This document shows positions 12,689 to 19,424 of a DNA stretch of 40,354 bases, in pieces. Location: assembly GCF_900141935.1 (NCBI RefSeq), contig NZ_FQYX01000033.1, positions 1-40,354 on the forward strand, read 5' to 3'. A program made the translations under genes and the position numbers. The notes beneath the pieces are model-generated. The model was given only the letters and a program-made list of their open reading frames with translations, searched no databases and was not told the origin of the DNA. The DNA is from Arenibacter nanhaiticus (GTDB taxonomy: Bacteria > Bacteroidota > Bacteroidia > Flavobacteriales > Flavobacteriaceae). Position 1 is the stretch's first letter. Each line of letters starts with the position of its first letter.

Positions 12689-14248
12689 TTAGGACTTCGC
12701 CTCTTCTACTTCTTCCTGCTCTTTCTCTTGTTTTGGTTGCGGCACATAAAACAAATCTAAATAAGCCTTCCCAATACACTCTATGATCCCAGAAGCCGTT
12801 AAGGCCTCATATCCGCAATCTTCCACGGCAATATCGCCAGCTTTTCCATGTAAATAGACTCCAAAAACAGCCGCTAATGATGACGCATACCCTTGCGCAA
12901 TTAATCCTGTTATAACTCCGGTCAACACATCGCCACTACCCGCCGTTGCCATTCCTGGGTTCCCTGTTGAATTTATATAACCAATACCCTTATATATCAC
13001 CATTGAATGAGCTCCCTTTATTACCAAGACAATATTGTACTTGTTTGAAAACATCTTTGCCTTTTTCAATTTCTCAAAATCATCCTTCCAAGGTCCGATC
13101 AACCTTTCCAACTCCTTAGGGTGGGGAGTGAGCACTGAATCTGCCGGCAGTAATTTTAGCAGGCTCTTGTTTTTCGACAATATATTTAAGGCATCTGCAT
13201 CGACCACCAAAGGCGATTTATTATGTTTTAAAAAAGCTGTAAAGGCTTTTGTGGTCGTTTCAGAAACCCCTAAACCTATGCCAATACCAATAACACTAGG
13301 CACAATGTCAAAGGTAATATCGATCAGCTCCTTTTCTCCTTGGTCGACAACCACCATGGCTTCCGCGAGAGAGGTTTGCATCGGAATATAACCACAACTA
13401 GGCACATAACTAGTCACCAAGCCACTACCGGCTTTTAAACATGCCTTGGCCGATAAAATCACTGCGCCTATTTTACCATAGCTCCCTCCAATAATTAATG
13501 AATGACCATAAGTACCTTTATGCGAAAATTTGTTTCTGGGAAGATACATTGGCACCACCTCACTTTTACCCATCAATTCGTATTGCGTTGGCAAACCCGA
13601 TAAAAACTCCATATCCAATCCTATATCCAAGATCTCCCATTGCCCAATATTAACACCGGTTTCGGGCAAGAAAAACACAAGTTTTGGCGCCTGAAAACTC
13701 AATACATGGTTCGCTTTTATAATCCCTGCGGTATTATCCACTCCCGTTTCCATAAATAAACCGGAAGGAAGGTCTATAGAAAGAATGAAGGCGCTGGAGG
13801 CATTTAAATACTCTATTAAATTCACCACCCATTGGTCTGGCGCCCTATTTAAACCAATCCCAAAAATAGCATCGACTATAACATCATTTTTATCAATGGC
13901 CGGAAATTCAGATACATGATTCAGAAAATTAGGCCAGACTTTTCGATCTTGCAACCGGTTTAAATTAATCAGAAAATCCTTAGAGCGTTTTTCACTATAA
14001 TTCACCACGTGCACCGCTATATTATAACCGTGCTCCTGCAGATGACGTGCCAAAGCAATACCATCTCCCCCGTTATTTCCTATCCCGCAAAACAAATGAA
14101 CCTTTACAGGTGCTCCCTGCATTCTTAAATGCATCCAATTAAAAATCTGAACGGCAGCACGCTCCATAAGCATCTCGCTTTCAATGTTCTGCTTTTCAAT
14201 TGTGAATTTATCAGCATCGTAGATTTGTTGCGCATTAAAAATCTTCAT
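12689..14248 (-). CDS. nnr: Bifunctional NAD(P)H-hydrate epimerase / ADP-dependent NAD(P)H-hydrate dehydratase
   Basis: The enzyme repairs hydrated NAD(P)H (NADHX). The N-terminal YjeF_N domain (about 1-210) interconverts the R and S forms; it shows CGIGNNGGDGIALARHL and the DAIFGIGLNR segment. The C-terminal ribokinase-like domain (about 230-495) dehydrates S-NAD(P)HX with ADP; it shows TPHPKELERL, KGAHSMV and the GNPGMATAGSGDVLTG anion-hole and catalytic Asp motif. I place the start at ATG 14248 (MKIFNAQQIYDADKF). The open frame extends ten codons upstream but only to a TTG, and the family begins at the chosen Met. The product is 519 residues, full length for the fusion, with a Glu-rich tail. 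It is divergent from the thr operon. Confidence 0.93.
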   Translation of the reverse strand: MKIFNAQQIYDADKFTIEKQNIESEMLMERAAVQIFNWMHLRMQGAPVKVHLFCGIGNNGGDGIALARHLQEHGYNIAVHVVNYSEKRSKDFLINLNRLQDRKVWPNFLNHVSEFPAIDKNDVIVDAIFGIGLNRAPDQWVVNLIEYLNASSAFILSIDLPSGLFMETGVDNTAGIIKANHVLSFQAPKLVFFLPETGVNIGQWEILDIGLDMEFLSGLPTQYELMGKSEVVPMYLPRNKFSHKGTYGHSLIIGGSYGKIGAVILSAKACLKAGSGLVTSYVPSCGYIPMQTSLAEAMVVVDQGEKELIDITFDIVPSVIGIGIGLGVSETTTKAFTAFLKHNKSPLVVDADALNILSKNKSLLKLLPADSVLTPHPKELERLIGPWKDDFEKLKKAKMFSNKYNIVLVIKGAHSMVIYKGIGYINSTGNPGMATAGSGDVLTGVITGLIAQGYASSLAAVFGVYLHGKAGDIAVEDCGYEALTASGIIECIGKAYLDLFYVPQPKQEKEQEEVEEAKS

Positions 14249-14302
14249 ATCGTATTTTTTTAGGACAATAATTACCAATAATGTAAAAATAGAAACGATC
14301 CT

Positions 14303-14332
14303 TTGATTCGTTACTCAAAAATACTACTTTTG
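14303..14332 (+). promoter_or_regulatory. Promoter of the thr operon
   Basis: TTG (14303-14305), 19 nt and TACTTTTG (14325-14332) match the Bacteroidota consensus exactly. The transcript would start near 14337, about 12 nt before the leader-peptide ATG and about 180 nt before thrA. Confidence 0.8.
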
Positions 14333-14348
14333 ATTCTTTATCCGCAAC

Positions 14349-14447
14349 ATGATAGTAAACAATTCGGACATCCTAAAATTCTACGCTCCTATAGTAATTG
14401 GTACAATTACCACTACTACTATTGGTACCACCACCCCTTTGGGGTAA
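14349..14447 (+). CDS. thrL: Threonine operon leader peptide
   Basis: A 32-codon open frame starts 17 nt after the promoter's -7 element and ends 73 nt before thrA. Its residues 17-29 read IGTITTTTIGTTT: eight Thr, three Ile and two Gly in thirteen. This is the composition expected of an attenuator peptide whose ribosome stalls when Thr-tRNA or Ile-tRNA is scarce, as in γ-proteobacterial thrL. The rest (MIVNNSDILKFYAPIV) has no special bias apart from more Ile and Val. It is too short for most gene finders. I know of no sequence homology to E. coli thrL; the resemblance is in design. Confidence rests on composition, position and the matching downstream pathway. Confidence 0.85.
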   Translation: MIVNNSDILKFYAPIVIGTITTTTIGTTTPLG

Positions 14448-14520
14448 TCTACTATATATTCGTCCGTCCATATTTTTTTTTCTAAAAAAACGTTTACCTT
14501 TTTCTTTAAAACCAACAACC
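14389..14520 (+). promoter_or_regulatory. Candidate thr attenuator RNA
   Basis: Mutually exclusive pairings overlap the Thr/Ile codons. GTAATTG-GTA-CAATTAC is a 7-bp hairpin (14393-14409). TATAGTAATT (14390-14399) can instead pair with AATCTACTATA (14446-14456, one bulged C). ATTACC (14406-14411) can pair with GGTAAT (14443-14448). A nine-T run follows at 14473-14481. I could not find a GC-rich hairpin directly before the T run, so the terminator form is not established; only the leader peptide is strong. Confidence 0.55.
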
Positions 14521-16965
14521 ATGAAAGTTCTAAAATTCGGGGGCAGTTCTGTTGCGAATGCCCAAAATATCAGTTTAATAAAAAATATTATCGCCCCTAT
14601 TAATAGGGATAAAACCATAATAGTCGTTTCTGCTTTGGGGGGTATAACAGACCTATTACTTCAAACTGCACAACTAGCTTCTATCCAAGACAAGAGTTAT
14701 ACGTCTATTTTCTTGGAGATAGAGAACAGGCATTTACAGACTATTAAGGAATTAATTCCTATTCACCAGCAAAGCAAGGTCCTAAGCAAGGTTAAGAGTG
14801 AATTAAATATCTTGGAAACACTTTTAGAGGGCGCCTTTTTAATTGGAGAAATAACCCCTAAACTTTCGGATAAGATTGTGAGTTACGGAGAGCTGTTATC
14901 GTCTTATATTATCAGTGAGTATTTTATTTCTGAAGGTATAGACACTGCCCATACGGATAGTAGACAACTAATAAAAACCAATAACCATTACGGCAAAGCA
15001 ATAGTCAATTACAACATCACCAATGATAATATTGCCAAACATATTCAGGAATGTCCTCACCAAATTATTGTTTTGGGAGGCTTTATCGCTTCTTCCATTA
15101 AGGGCGATTCTACAACCCTAGGTCGCGGTGGTTCTGATTATACGGCAGCAATCGTTGCCAATGCCATTGATGCGGAAGTGTTAGAAATATGGACCGATGT
15201 CAGTGGTTTATACACTGCAAACCCAAAGATTGTAAAACAAGCCAAGGCCATTCCCCACATTTCTTATGAAGAAGCTATGGAACTGTCGCATTTTGGCGCT
15301 AAAGTTTTATATCCTCCAACCATACAACCAGTCCTTTCCAAGGGTATCAACATTGTTATAAAAAATACATTTGCCCCTGATGCTGCCGGTACTTTAATCA
15401 CTAAAAACCAAAATCGTTCCGGAAAAACAGTTAGGGGAATAAGTCATGTAGAACAAATAGCGCTACTCTCCTTAGAAGGATCGGGAATGGTAGGGATCCC
15501 TGGAATATCAAAACGTTTTTTTGAGGTACTTTCCCAAGCTGGAATAAGTGTGGTTATGATTACCCAAGCCTCTTCTGAACACTCTATCTGCATAGGGATC
15601 TCTGACCAAGATACCGACTTGGCCGTTGAAATTATAAACGACGCCTTTTCCCATGAGATATCCTTGGGCAAAATAAAACCAGTAATCGCCGAAAAAGAAT
15701 TGGCCATTATAGCATTAGTAGGCGACAATATGAAAAGCCACCAAGGCCTTAGCGGCAAAATGTTCAGTACCCTAGGAAAAAACAACGTAAACATAAGAGC
15801 CATTGCTCAAGGCGCTTCTGAACGTAATATCTCTGCCGTGATTAAAAAAGACGATGTAAAAAAAGCATTGAATAGCTTACATGAAGAATTCTTTGAAGAA
15901 AATGTAAAGCAATTAAACCTTTTTGTGATGGGCGTGGGGAATGTAGGTTCTAAATTAATGAACCAAATACAGCTTCAAAAGAAATACTTAAAGGAAAAAC
16001 TTAGACTCAATATTAGGGTTATTGGAATCGCAAACTCCCGTAAAATGGTTTTTAATGAGGATGGCATTTCTCTAAAAAACTGGGAAGAGGCCCTGAGCAA
16101 TGGTCAGTCAACCGATAAGGATCTTTTCTTTCAGACCATTAAAAACCTCAACTACCGAAACAGTATTTTTGTAGATAACACTGCTAGTGCCGAGGTATCC
16201 AAAACGTACAATACCTACCTTAGAAACAGCATTTCTATTGTCACCTGTAATAAAATCGCCTGCTCTTCGGATTTTAACAATTACCAGGAACTAAAAGATT
16301 TGGCACGTCAATACAATGCTCCTTTTTTGTTCGAAACCAATGTAGGCGCTGGACTCCCTATTATAGACACCCTAAAAAACCTGATGGCCTCTGGAGATAA
16401 GATCCTTAAAATACAAGCGGTACTCTCTGGAAGTCTAAATTTTGTATTCAACAATTTTAACGACAAGACCACTTTTCACGACGTGGTAAAGGAAGCTCAG
16501 GAACAGGGATATACAGAACCAGATCCTACCATAGATTTAAGCGGCATAGACGTTATGAGAAAAATATTAATTCTAGCCAGGGAAAGCGGGAATGAATTAA
16601 ATATTGACGACATAGTGAATACCCCCTTTCTTCCGAAGGAAAGCCTAGACACTAACAATAACGAGGATTTCTTTGCTTCTTTAGTAAAACACGAGGAGTC
16701 TTTCCAAAAAATGTATGCCGAAGCTTCCAAAGCAGATTGCAAGCTTAAATATGTGGCCCAATTTGAGAATGGAAAAGCTAGCGTAGGCTTGCAACACATT
16801 CCTAAAGGACACGATTTTTATAACTTGGAAGGCAGTGATAATATTGTTTTGTTTTTTACCGAAAGATACCCTAACCAACCGATGATCATTAAGGGTGCTG
16901 GGGCTGGGGCCGATGTTACGGCTTCCGGAATTTTTGCGGACATCATTAGAATTGGTAATTTTTAA
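14521..16965 (+). CDS. thrA: Bifunctional aspartokinase / homoserine dehydrogenase
   Basis: This 814-residue cytoplasmic enzyme catalyses the first and third steps of threonine synthesis. The aspartokinase domain (about 1-295) starts KVLKFGGSSVANAQN and includes GRGGSDYTAAIVA and VSGLYTANPK. Two ACT-type regulatory segments follow (about 315-455, EGSGMVGIPGISKRFFEVL), the usual site of threonine feedback. The homoserine dehydrogenase domain (about 460-814) begins LNLFVMGVGNVGSKL (nucleotide binding) and has the GLPIIDTLKNLMASGDKI and LSGSLNFVFNNF motifs. I chose ATG 14521 because the family starts at MKVLKFGGS; the frame is open upstream only because the leader region happens to lack stops. 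It is first in thrA-thrB-thrC, 15 nt before thrB. Confidence 0.97.
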   Translation: MKVLKFGGSSVANAQNISLIKNIIAPINRDKTIIVVSALGGITDLLLQTAQLASIQDKSYTSIFLEIENRHLQTIKELIPIHQQSKVLSKVKSELNILETLLEGAFLIGEITPKLSDKIVSYGELLSSYIISEYFISEGIDTAHTDSRQLIKTNNHYGKAIVNYNITNDNIAKHIQECPHQIIVLGGFIASSIKGDSTTLGRGGSDYTAAIVANAIDAEVLEIWTDVSGLYTANPKIVKQAKAIPHISYEEAMELSHFGAKVLYPPTIQPVLSKGINIVIKNTFAPDAAGTLITKNQNRSGKTVRGISHVEQIALLSLEGSGMVGIPGISKRFFEVLSQAGISVVMITQASSEHSICIGISDQDTDLAVEIINDAFSHEISLGKIKPVIAEKELAIIALVGDNMKSHQGLSGKMFSTLGKNNVNIRAIAQGASERNISAVIKKDDVKKALNSLHEEFFEENVKQLNLFVMGVGNVGSKLMNQIQLQKKYLKEKLRLNIRVIGIANSRKMVFNEDGISLKNWEEALSNGQSTDKDLFFQTIKNLNYRNSIFVDNTASAEVSKTYNTYLRNSISIVTCNKIACSSDFNNYQELKDLARQYNAPFLFETNVGAGLPIIDTLKNLMASGDKILKIQAVLSGSLNFVFNNFNDKTTFHDVVKEAQEQGYTEPDPTIDLSGIDVMRKILILARESGNELNIDDIVNTPFLPKESLDTNNNEDFFASLVKHEESFQKMYAEASKADCKLKYVAQFENGKASVGLQHIPKGHDFYNLEGSDNIVLFFTERYPNQPMIIKGAGAGADVTASGIFADIIRIGNF

Positions 16966-16980
16966 AACACGACTCCTAGC

Positions 16981-17904
16981 ATGAAAAACGAAATAAAAGT
17001 ATTTTGCCCAGCTACCATAGCCAATATCTCTTGTGGTTTTGATGTCTTAGGACTAGCCTTGGATGCTGTGGGCGACGAGATGGTAGTTCGTAAAACGGCG
17101 CAAAAAGGTATCCGGATCGTACAACTTACAGGGCAAGACCTTCCCATGGAAACCCATCAGAATGTTGCCGGGGTGGCTGGTTTGGCCTTATTGGCCGAAA
17201 GCGATTACGATGGCGGTTTTGATATAGAGATCTATAAAAAAATAAAAGCAGGAAGCGGTATAGGAAGCAGTGCCGCGAGCTCAACGGGGGCTGTTTGGGC
17301 CATGAACCAATTGCTAAACAAGCCTTTTTCTAATTTAGAATTGGTAAAATTTGCCATGGAAGGGGAACGGTTAGCGAGCGGGGTCGCCCATGCAGATAAT
17401 GTAGCCCCTGCCCTATTTGGTGGCTTTACCTTGGTAAGAAGCTACGAACCATTGGATATTGTTAAAATCCCAAACCCTGAAGAGCTGTACGCTACGGTTA
17501 TTCACCCACAAATAGAAGTAAAGACCTCGGACTCTAGGCGTATCCTAAAAACCACCATATCGCTGGAAGACGGGATTAAGCAATGGGGGAATGTTGGCGG
17601 GCTGATCGCAGGTTTGTTTACCAATGATTATGAATTGATAGGTAGATCTTTAGTAGACCACATCGTAGAACCTATACGTTCTATTTTAATTCCCGGCTTT
17701 GACAAAGTAAAGGAAGAAGCTATCAATGCCGGGGCCCTTGGCTGTGGAATTTCTGGATCGGGCCCCTCAATTTTTGCTTTGAGCAAAGGAGCACAAACCG
17801 CCCAAGAAGTAGCCGATGCCATGCGTAAAGTATATCAAAAAATTGGCATTGAATACGATATCCATGTATCCAAAATAAACGCGGAAGGTATTAGGGAAAT
17901 CTAA
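16981..17904 (+). CDS. thrB: Homoserine kinase
   Basis: This 307-residue GHMP-family kinase phosphorylates homoserine with ATP. The N-terminus (VFCPATIANISCGFDVLGLA) and the ATP-binding loop KAGSGIGSSAASSTGAVWA (near 90-107) are typical, as is the C-terminal GCGISGSGPSIFAL (about 256-269). The start lies 15 nt after the thrA stop, so the two are clearly one operon. A 224-nt gap then separates it from thrC, longer than in most thr operons. Confidence 0.96.
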   Translation: MKNEIKVFCPATIANISCGFDVLGLALDAVGDEMVVRKTAQKGIRIVQLTGQDLPMETHQNVAGVAGLALLAESDYDGGFDIEIYKKIKAGSGIGSSAASSTGAVWAMNQLLNKPFSNLELVKFAMEGERLASGVAHADNVAPALFGGFTLVRSYEPLDIVKIPNPEELYATVIHPQIEVKTSDSRRILKTTISLEDGIKQWGNVGGLIAGLFTNDYELIGRSLVDHIVEPIRSILIPGFDKVKEEAINAGALGCGISGSGPSIFALSKGAQTAQEVADAMRKVYQKIGIEYDIHVSKINAEGIREI

Positions 17905-18128
17905 AAAGCAGGATAACGGTATTCAATATTTATTTCTTTATAGAACACCGTGTATGAAGGTCGATAAGGCTAGAATAAAATCTATATAAAGAATAGACAC
18001 CCTAAAGAAAGTCAACTGTACACATAAAATATAGAGGAGAAAAAAAAAGCCCCTATCAAAGACAATAACATTTAAAACCAACTGACCGAGAAATTTTAAT
18101 TTCTGAACAGTGATTCTAATCCAATCTT
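17905..18128 (+). other. 224-nt thrB–thrC spacer
   Basis: No gene is visible, and no TAnnTTTG promoter was found. A 7-bp hairpin AGAAATT-TT-AATTTCT (18089-18104) lies 25 nt before the thrC start and could influence translation or RNA processing. That role is a guess. Confidence 0.3.
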
Positions 18129-19424
18129 ATGAAATATTACAGCCTCAATAAACAAGCGCCAAACGTATCCTTCAAAGAAGCGGTGATAAAAGGAATTGCC
18201 CCAGACCGCGGACTTTATTTTCCTGAGTCTATCACTCCCTTACCGACCTCCTTTTTCGAAAATATAGAAAACCTCTCTAAACACGAGATTGCCTTTACCG
18301 CTATTAAACAATTTACCGGCGACGAGCTCCCCGACCCTGTATTAAGAGAAATTCTCGAAGATGTATTAGATTTTGATTTCCCGCTTGTGGAAATTGAGGA
18401 CCAAGTGGCTTCTTTGGAACTTTTTCACGGGCCTACCATGGCCTTTAAAGATGTAGGTGCCCGATTTATGGCCAAGTGCTTAGGGTACTTTTCCCAGAAA
18501 ACCACCAACGAAGTCACGGTGCTAGTAGCCACCTCCGGCGACACCGGTGGTGCTGTAGCGAACGGATTTTTAGGTGTTGATGGTGTTAAGGTCGTAATTC
18601 TATATCCTAGTGGAAAGGTCAGTGATATTCAGGAAAGACAATTGACCACTCTAGGACAAAATATAACCGCCCTAGAGGTCGATGGCACCTTTGACGATTG
18701 CCAACACATGGTGAAAACAGCCTTTTTAGACCAGGAACTGACCGCTGAAATGCAACTTACCTCTGCCAATTCTATAAATGTTGCCCGGTGGCTTCCCCAA
18801 CTGTTCTATTTCCTGTTTGCGTATAAACAAGCGAAAAGCAAAGGAAAGGAAATTGTCTTTTCCGTCCCTAGTGGGAATTTTGGAAATATATGCGCCGGAA
18901 TTATGGCTCAGCGATTGGGAATGCCCTGCAAACAGTTTGTGGCGGCGACCAATATAAACGATATTGTGCCCAATTTTATGAAAACCGGAACCTATACTCC
19001 AAAACCTTCTCAAGCTACCATTTCCAACGCCATGGATGTTGGGGATCCTAGTAACTTTATAAGGATAAGACATTTGTTCCAAGATAATTTTGATGCCTTA
19101 TCCAATAATTTATCATCCTATTCCTTTACTGATAAAGAAACCAAGCAAGCCATGCTGAAAATCTATACGGACTTTAATTATGTGGCCGATCCACATGGTG
19201 CCGTAGGGTATTTGGGTTTGAAAAAATACCAGGAAAAACAACCGAACACCTATGGCATTTTTCTAGAAACCGCCCATCCTGTTAAATTTTTAGATGTCGT
19301 GGAAGATACCATTACTGAAAAAATAGCCCTTCCCAAACAAATAGCAATGCTTATGGATAAAAAGAAAAAATCTATTAAGATCTCGGAGTATGGGGAATTA
19401 AAGACTTTTCTCTTAAACAAATAA
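18129..19424 (+). CDS. thrC: Threonine synthase
   Basis: This 431-residue PLP enzyme converts O-phosphohomoserine to threonine. PLP-binding K107 is in GPTMAFKDVGARF, and the phosphate-binding loop is ATSGDTGGAVANGF. Further family marks are PSGNFGNICAGI and the C-terminal ETAHPVKF. It is the last gene of the thr operon and is followed by a clear terminator at 19473-19518. Its length and N-terminal lid (YYSLNKQAPNVSFKEAVIKG) fit the bacterial ThrC type. Confidence 0.97.
   Translation: MKYYSLNKQAPNVSFKEAVIKGIAPDRGLYFPESITPLPTSFFENIENLSKHEIAFTAIKQFTGDELPDPVLREILEDVLDFDFPLVEIEDQVASLELFHGPTMAFKDVGARFMAKCLGYFSQKTTNEVTVLVATSGDTGGAVANGFLGVDGVKVVILYPSGKVSDIQERQLTTLGQNITALEVDGTFDDCQHMVKTAFLDQELTAEMQLTSANSINVARWLPQLFYFLFAYKQAKSKGKEIVFSVPSGNFGNICAGIMAQRLGMPCKQFVAATNINDIVPNFMKTGTYTPKPSQATISNAMDVGDPSNFIRIRHLFQDNFDALSNNLSSYSFTDKETKQAMLKIYTDFNYVADPHGAVGYLGLKKYQEKQPNTYGIFLETAHPVKFLDVVEDTITEKIALPKQIAMLMDKKKKSIKISEYGELKTFLLNK

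Follow-up and report, generated by a model that had tools for sequence, protein, structure and literature searches.

A putative Thr/Ile-sensing leader peptide with conserved RNA hairpins upstream of thrABC in Arenibacter nanhaiticus and other Flavobacteriaceae

The thr operon of gamma-proteobacteria is preceded by the thrL leader, and Rfam holds a thr leader family. Rho-dependent termination gated by a ribosome that translates a leader peptide is known from other systems, among them E. coli tna (TnaC) and mgtL of Salmonella. In Flavobacterium psychrophilum, leader-peptide attenuation was proposed in 2021 upstream of amino acid operons, with conserved 5' elements named for hisG and pheA among others, and neither thrA nor threonine occurs in the main text of that report (PMC9723704). 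The available text of a Bacteroides thetaiotaomicron map mentions leader-like sORFs, with thrA and threonine absent from it (PMC7366714); Bacteroid-trp is listed in the available part of PMC2864571, and the subject of PMC4833913, as far as its available part goes, is reinitiation. Among the literature matches listed, with subscription papers outside their scope, none reports a thr leader in Bacteroidetes. The amino acid leader peptide is therefore a known kind of element, of which the thr variant described here was not found in the literature searched, as far as the texts were available.

The window analysed here is a 40,354-nt stretch of Arenibacter nanhaiticus DNA, in which the leader region is flanked on one side by an NAD(P)H-hydrate repair gene that runs divergently (about 12689-14248, minus strand) and on the other by the plus-strand genes thrA-thrB-thrC. 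The thrA gene (14521-16965) encodes an aspartokinase-homoserine dehydrogenase with Pfam AA_kinase, ACT, NAD_binding_3 and Homoserine_dh domains, and its closest named orthologue comes from Arenibacter echinorum (83%). The thrB gene (16981-17904) encodes a protein with GHMP kinase domains, whose specificity as homoserine kinase is assigned by operon context, and thrC (18129-19424) encodes threonine synthase. The gap of 224 nt between thrB and thrC (17905-18128) is a possible site for an internal promoter or a second control element. An Rfam scan of the window also located two tRNA genes on the minus strand (390-464 and 499-582). The Rfam thr leader gave no match at its gathering score, nor at E up to 10 on 14200-14640, in agreement with the preliminary description of this DNA, which had expected independence in sequence from thrL. 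Bacteroid-trp (RF01692) had no match at the thr locus either, the genome's one copy lying elsewhere (G000:C46).

The leader is preceded on the plus strand by a flavobacterial-type promoter (14303-14332), in which TTG (14303-14305) and TACTTTTG (14325-14332) are separated by 19 nt. The latter element matches the flavobacterial consensus TAnnTTTG, and this is the only plus-strand occurrence of the motif within 14279-14520. The leader ORF comprises 32 codons, MIVNNSDILKFYAPIVIGTITTTTIGTTTPLG (14349-14447, plus strand), beginning with ATG at 14349 and ending with a UAA stop at 14445-14447, followed by 73 nt to thrA at 14521; homologues precede thrA in relatives. Its codons 17-29 (14397-14435) read I G T I T T T T I G T T T, and the codon list confirmed the count of eight Thr, three Ile and two Gly given in the preliminary description, together with its coordinates for the consensus promoter, the 32-codon frame and the 73-nt distance to thrA.

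A search by protein similarity yielded 98 thrA orthologue loci (80 named and 18 of the genus, two genomes being in both sets), and in 89 of them the hairpin pattern ACCC-N-GGG occurs at most 260 nt upstream of thrA. In the window this pattern corresponds to hairpin P2 (ACCCC-UUU-GGGGU, 14433-14445, plus strand), whose 5' arm contains the last Thr codon. The nine loci without the standard element are L046, L057, L059, L067, L070, L071, L072, L073 and L079, of which L071 and L072 keep a Thr-rich ORF although they lack the pattern, and in L059, L067, L073 and L079 thrA apparently adjoins another gene upstream, as judged by eye. The contigs of L073 and L079 are labelled Pyrinomonadaceae (Acidobacteria); their thrA genes are 52-54% identical to that of the window, apparently have no leader and lie directly behind another gene, which may reflect either transfer or mis-binning.

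A covariance model (R1), built from 79 leader sequences (alignment A1), was applied to 199 family genomes at E up to 0.01. It gave a single match in each of 77, in every case directly before thrA (77/77), and the remaining 122 had no match at this threshold under the strict many-genome filters. The window's own genome contains one match even at E up to 10. In the wider class, R1 matched 11 of 295 genomes, and all nine newly fetched loci are upstream of thrA. An RNA platform shared with other operons was considered and rejected, because the matched genomes give one match each, before thrA. A paralogue with 37-39% identity was likewise rejected as a no-leader control, as the window's genome encodes it as the C-terminal portion of a longer fusion ORF and it has no 5' UTR there; Rfam found nothing in three loci of this paralogue. 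The genome's second aspartokinase-homoserine dehydrogenase (L241, G000:C41:32623-35025) is fused behind an alpha/beta-hydrolase domain, which we guess to be homoserine O-acetyltransferase-like, and the methionine branch may thus have a fused enzyme of its own.

For finer comparison, the 89 leaders found by pattern and the 77 found by model and then pattern (166 in total) were reduced to 124 by removing near-identical sequences (<85% identity retained). Selection by the ACCC..GGG pattern means that Thr at codon 0 and P2 are present by construction in this set, a bias that does not affect the rate of 89/98. An in-frame ATG ORF reaches into P2 in 118 of the 124 leaders, and the control codons are conserved among these 118. 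Over the six codons ahead of the P2 codon, from -1 to -6, Thr stands at 58, 52, 42, 56, 54 and 45% and Ile at 31, 30, 20, 21, 12 and 18%, with one or the other at 89% of codons -1 and 82% of codons -2, and farther 5' than codon -6 Thr drops to 7-26%. All of ACA, ACT, ACC and ACG are used at each codon from -1 to -5, and codon -6 has three of them; this variation in the third base shows that the amino acids themselves are under selection. The motif TAnnTTTG lies 8-60 nt 5' of the leader ATG in 103 of the 118 non-redundant leaders having one, and a second copy is located between leader and thrA in 24 of the 118, with none there in the window. The comparison with relatives that the preliminary description had proposed thus favoured the leader-peptide part of its reading, in that the Thr/Ile run and the promoter recur, the rest of the ORF drifts and the RNA hairpins covary. 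Since the Thr codons are conserved in relatives, translation of the leader very probably senses threonine supply. P2 is G+C-rich and nearly invariant (alignment A1), and the ORF might on that account be a chance product of conserved RNA structure that is not translated. This is highly improbable, given that Thr is retained while its codons vary, that the in-frame ORF recurs so widely, that none of 20,000 composition-keeping shuffles of 14279-14520 contained an ORF with at least eight Thr codons in 13, and that the same genome has His- and Trp-rich leaders before hisG and the trp genes.

P2 folds in 123 of the 124 leaders (median -7.5 kcal/mol). Measured from the start of P2, the end of the ORF falls at 9 nt (stop in the loop), 15 nt or 18 nt in 111 leaders and at 21-33 nt in the other 13. 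Around it, the plus strand of the window carries hairpin P1 (14388-14425; codons 14-26, extending into the Thr run), with an outer stem probability of 0.71 in folding, a conserved linker of YACATATA type (14450-14459; A1, 79 leaders), which is mostly unpaired in folds, and P3 (14473-14490), which folding presents as a weak U7/A7 hairpin including the T9 run. The cognate-duplex test and the listed helices further indicate that segment A (CGGAC, codons 6-7, 14365-14369) can pair with segment D (GUCCG, 14462-14466), its 3' partner.

Covariation was tested without alignment by comparing duplex energies of segments from the same leader with those of segments from different leaders, over 1128 pairs of segment windows and 124 leaders, with offsets counted from the A of P2 (14433 in the window). 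The strongest signals belong to P3 (+36 to +70; z -9.5, strong in other clades) and to P1, the hairpin 5' of the Thr run (-60 to -30; z -9.2), followed by A:B (-80 to -66 with -28 to -14; z -5.4), P2 (z -5.2) and A:D (-68 to -54 with +28 to +42; z -4.5). All five persist after shuffling within clusters, which are defined by identity around P2 and not by phylogeny, and the control pairs B:D, P1:D and A:Thr gave no signal in that within-cluster test. For A:D, the within-cluster value is z -3.2 (1/400 shuffles as low), and the pairing reaches significance by itself in a single cluster, that of the window (z -3.0; -0.2 to -1.5 in the others), in which P1 and P3 at fixed offsets gave no signal (0.1 and 1.5). 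Two other pairings were rejected, as the linker with the P3 3' arm fell from z -3.4 globally to -1.2 within clusters and the Thr run with P3 from -2.2 to -1.4; the P2 3' arm with D showed no covariation signal.

Among relatives, A/D helices take the forms UGGAC/GUCCA (L084), ACGGAC/GUCUGU (L090, L092) and GAUGAU/AUCAUC (L147), with A:D-type helices at other places only in L004, L172 and L179 and nothing better than -1.8 kcal/mol for A:D in L003, L009, L011, L185 and L187. Column-wise covariation is weak in the window clade (A2, 35 sequences), with 4 pairs showing two-sided changes vs 4.0 in shuffles; the percentage paired alone stands out there (4/500 shuffles as high), and P2 is invariant. 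RNAalifold on clade alignments returned little beyond P2 and single hairpins, except for Arenibacter and Chryseobacterium, among the alignments listed. When folding was repeated with an assumed ribosome footprint of 17 nt back and 13 nt ahead, P2 opened for a ribosome located at the final Thr codons or at the stop codon, and not for one at earlier codons. The probability of A:D was 0.74-0.90 whatever the position of the leading ribosome, dropping to 0.38 only when a ribosome occupied the start of the leader, and in this model A:D would therefore answer to queued or initiating ribosomes and not to the leading one. The mutually exclusive pairings postulated for this leader have partial support: the A:B and A:D signals do adjoin or overlap, but footprint folding does not switch A:D.

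The thr leaders were scanned downstream of P2 to thrA, over at most 110 nt, for an intrinsic terminator, defined as a hairpin of -8 kcal/mol or better followed by 5 of 8 U, with P2 counted apart. Only one of the 124 leaders has such a terminator beyond P2, and the window leader has none. The same test was positive for his (10/10), for trp (12/12, a figure based on 12 of 43 trp matches) and for ilv (8/8, regions hand-picked by eye from 12 IlvD loci whose sequences had already been seen), with medians near -16; the four IlvD loci dropped, including that of the window's genome, have no leader visible within 330 nt. The window's genome itself carries a MKNKNTHHHHFHTGDQAR leader before hisG and, at its Bacteroid-trp copy, a WWW leader, each followed by a strong terminator. 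Upstream of hisG (L200-L209), His-rich leaders followed by strong terminators occur in 10/10 genomes, as in a textbook his attenuator. Upstream of ilvD in L211, L213 and L217, Ile/Val-rich leader-like frames (ending in NIIVP and a stop in L211) run into a P2-like CCC..GGG hairpin followed by a strong terminator, and these elements may be classical relatives of the thr leader. Of the probable attenuator first described, the leader peptide with its conserved Thr/Ile run stands, and attenuation itself is a hypothesis, no intrinsic terminator having been found beyond P2 in this leader. The accompanying reservation that switching might work in some other way proved justified.

An alternative is that a weak or non-canonical intrinsic terminator, formed by P3, by the A:D helix and U residues, or by P2 and an A/U-rich tail, acts once the ribosome has left. 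P3 was detected by hairpin scan in 110 of the 124 leaders, and its position roughly corresponds to that of the ilv terminators and, by eye, to that in the Ulvibacter thrA leader (L072), which is in the family and looks classical with a terminator. However, the 8 nt after P3 are not enriched in U (0.35 vs a background of 0.39; at least 5 U in 18/110), so P3 was rejected as a general terminator, and the P3 of the window, with its seven A-U pairs, was too weak for the scan. Of 123 leaders, 32 have at least 5 U among the 8 nt behind P2, which may act as a terminator in this minority, but not in the window, where it is followed by AATCTACT. Also counting against the alternative, the best A:D helix is followed by 5 of 8 U in 8 of 25 window-clade leaders. 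The T9 run of the preliminary description is present (14473-14481), but as it pairs with A7 (14484-14490) in an all-A/U hairpin (mean pair probability 0.52), and as no terminator was found in this stretch, it is an arm of that weak hairpin and was rejected as a terminator U-tract.

Outside the family, nine orthologues from other families of the class (L232-L240) were compared. A strong terminator (-17.2) follows the Thr/Ile-rich leader of L239, and L238 presents a similar but less clear case (-18.5); both lend the intrinsic-terminator alternative some weight. L233, L235 and L237 have Thr-containing leader-like ORFs, with a P2-like end in L233 and L237, and no convincing leader was seen in the other four, assignments made partly by eye. 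On balance the alternative is unlikely, and the thr leader of most Flavobacteriaceae examined is without a part that is present in some relatives.

Leader control might instead be translational, with the leader ribosome or the structures altering access to the thrA start codon. Start sites in Bacteroidetes are thought to depend on unstructured A/U-rich RNA, and the median distance from P2 to thrA is 100 nt (124 leaders), two points in favour of this reading. However, no covarying pairing with the thrA start was found, the best z there being -2.6 among 722 pairs of segment windows, and the single stronger pair in this test (z -4.1) is P3 itself, measured from thrA. In addition, P2 lies 153-193 nt before thrA with the element intact in 7 of 166 leaders (L008, L022, L024, L027, L031, L129 and L158). 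Both the missing partner and the long spacers argue against start-site sequestration, which was rejected for want of a covarying partner, and translational control in general seems rather improbable. The longer spacers of L022 and L024 are due to a repeat-like insert behind P3; together with L223, these Flavobacterium species share an insert of ~75 nt between P3 and thrA with a common GTTTTCAGTTTCAGTTCACAG core, resembling a small repeat. Control of mRNA stability, in which stalled ribosomes would keep the leader from being cut at the conserved A/U-rich linker and P3 would protect the RNA beyond it, would suit both the conserved, mostly unpaired linker and a P3 that covaries strongly yet is without terminator features, and is a doubtful prospect nonetheless.

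From P2 to thrA the window is rich in C and poor in G (17 C and 3 G in the 75 nt at 14446-14520, plus strand), and this stretch constitutes a possible loading region for Rho, which binds C-rich, G-poor RNA and is encoded by the window's genome. Across the 124 leaders, the stretch from P2 to thrA has C at 0.162 and G at 0.075, and C exceeds G in 121 of them, whereas the two are balanced before the leader (C/G 1.03) and in the his leader control (1.04, terminator included). The 75 nt before thrA have a median C/G of 1.92, compared with 1.10 across 58 further genes of L001-L080 (p 3e-15, with leaders that are not independent). Of the 18 genes of the window, thrA has the largest ratio, 5.0. Within the ORF, the Thr codons themselves account for some of the surplus of C. 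A spaced-C, rut-like pattern is not enriched (14/124 leaders vs 4/39 controls) and is absent from the window leader, and because this stricter pattern is not enriched, the involvement of Rho is something we infer.

The ORF, its Thr/Ile codons, the position of P2 at the ORF end and the covarying hairpins are all kept in the comparison, and on these sequence grounds the leader peptide is almost certainly a ribosome-mediated Thr/Ile sensor. Its control likely acts on transcription elongation, and Rho is the best single guess for the agent, though a tentative one. In the mechanism we propose, the progress of the ribosome on the leader would report charged tRNA-Thr and, less so, tRNA-Ile, and would control the thrABC mRNA in cis. 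With ample Thr, the ribosome would quickly reach the stop codon at P2 and leave. This would expose the RNA between the Thr run and thrA, which is C-rich and G-poor, and Rho would end transcription before thrA, with P3 perhaps serving as a pause. When Thr is scarce, ribosomes would stall and queue on the Thr codons, blocking Rho loading and keeping segment A covered, and transcription would continue into thrABC. No antiterminator pairing was found. This overall reading, in which a translated leader reports charged-tRNA supply and controls the thrABC mRNA in cis, most plausibly through Rho, stands about an even chance of being correct.

Compared with known systems, the leader resembles thrL in having a short Thr/Ile-rich ORF before thrABC and the same presumed logic, but differs from it in its peptide, in its P2 and linker, in that no intrinsic terminator was found and in its phylum. 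Of the features of a classical attenuator, the sequence thus offers a short ORF rich in codons for the product, and not the intrinsic terminator. Bacteroid-trp is likewise a leader-peptide RNA of Bacteroidetes, but it has Trp codons, another structure and a strong terminator behind it. Leader-peptide attenuation has similarly been proposed in the same family for the hisG and pheA elements and unnamed amino acid leaders of Flavobacterium psychrophilum, in the part of that report available (PMC9723704). The his leaders of the present analysis, unlike the thr leader, carry strong terminators. With TnaC and mgtL, the thr leader would share ribosome-gated Rho termination, a step that we infer here and that serves other ligands and other genes there; of the traits of such systems, it has the C-rich, G-poor downstream region and not the spaced-C rut pattern. 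We tentatively suggest, as a possibility short of an even one, that the thr switch of Flavobacteriaceae has a terminator-less architecture of its own (P1, the Thr run, P2 at the stop, the YACATATA linker and P3), in which starvation leads to protection from Rho or another factor and not to an antiterminator, whereas his, trp and often ilv are controlled classically. The putative sensor extends threonine leader control to Bacteroidetes by means of an RNA that matches no Rfam thr leader. The presence in one genome of classical his and trp leaders beside a terminator-less thr leader offers a clean natural comparison for asking by what means a stalled ribosome could regulate a gene when no intrinsic terminator is available.
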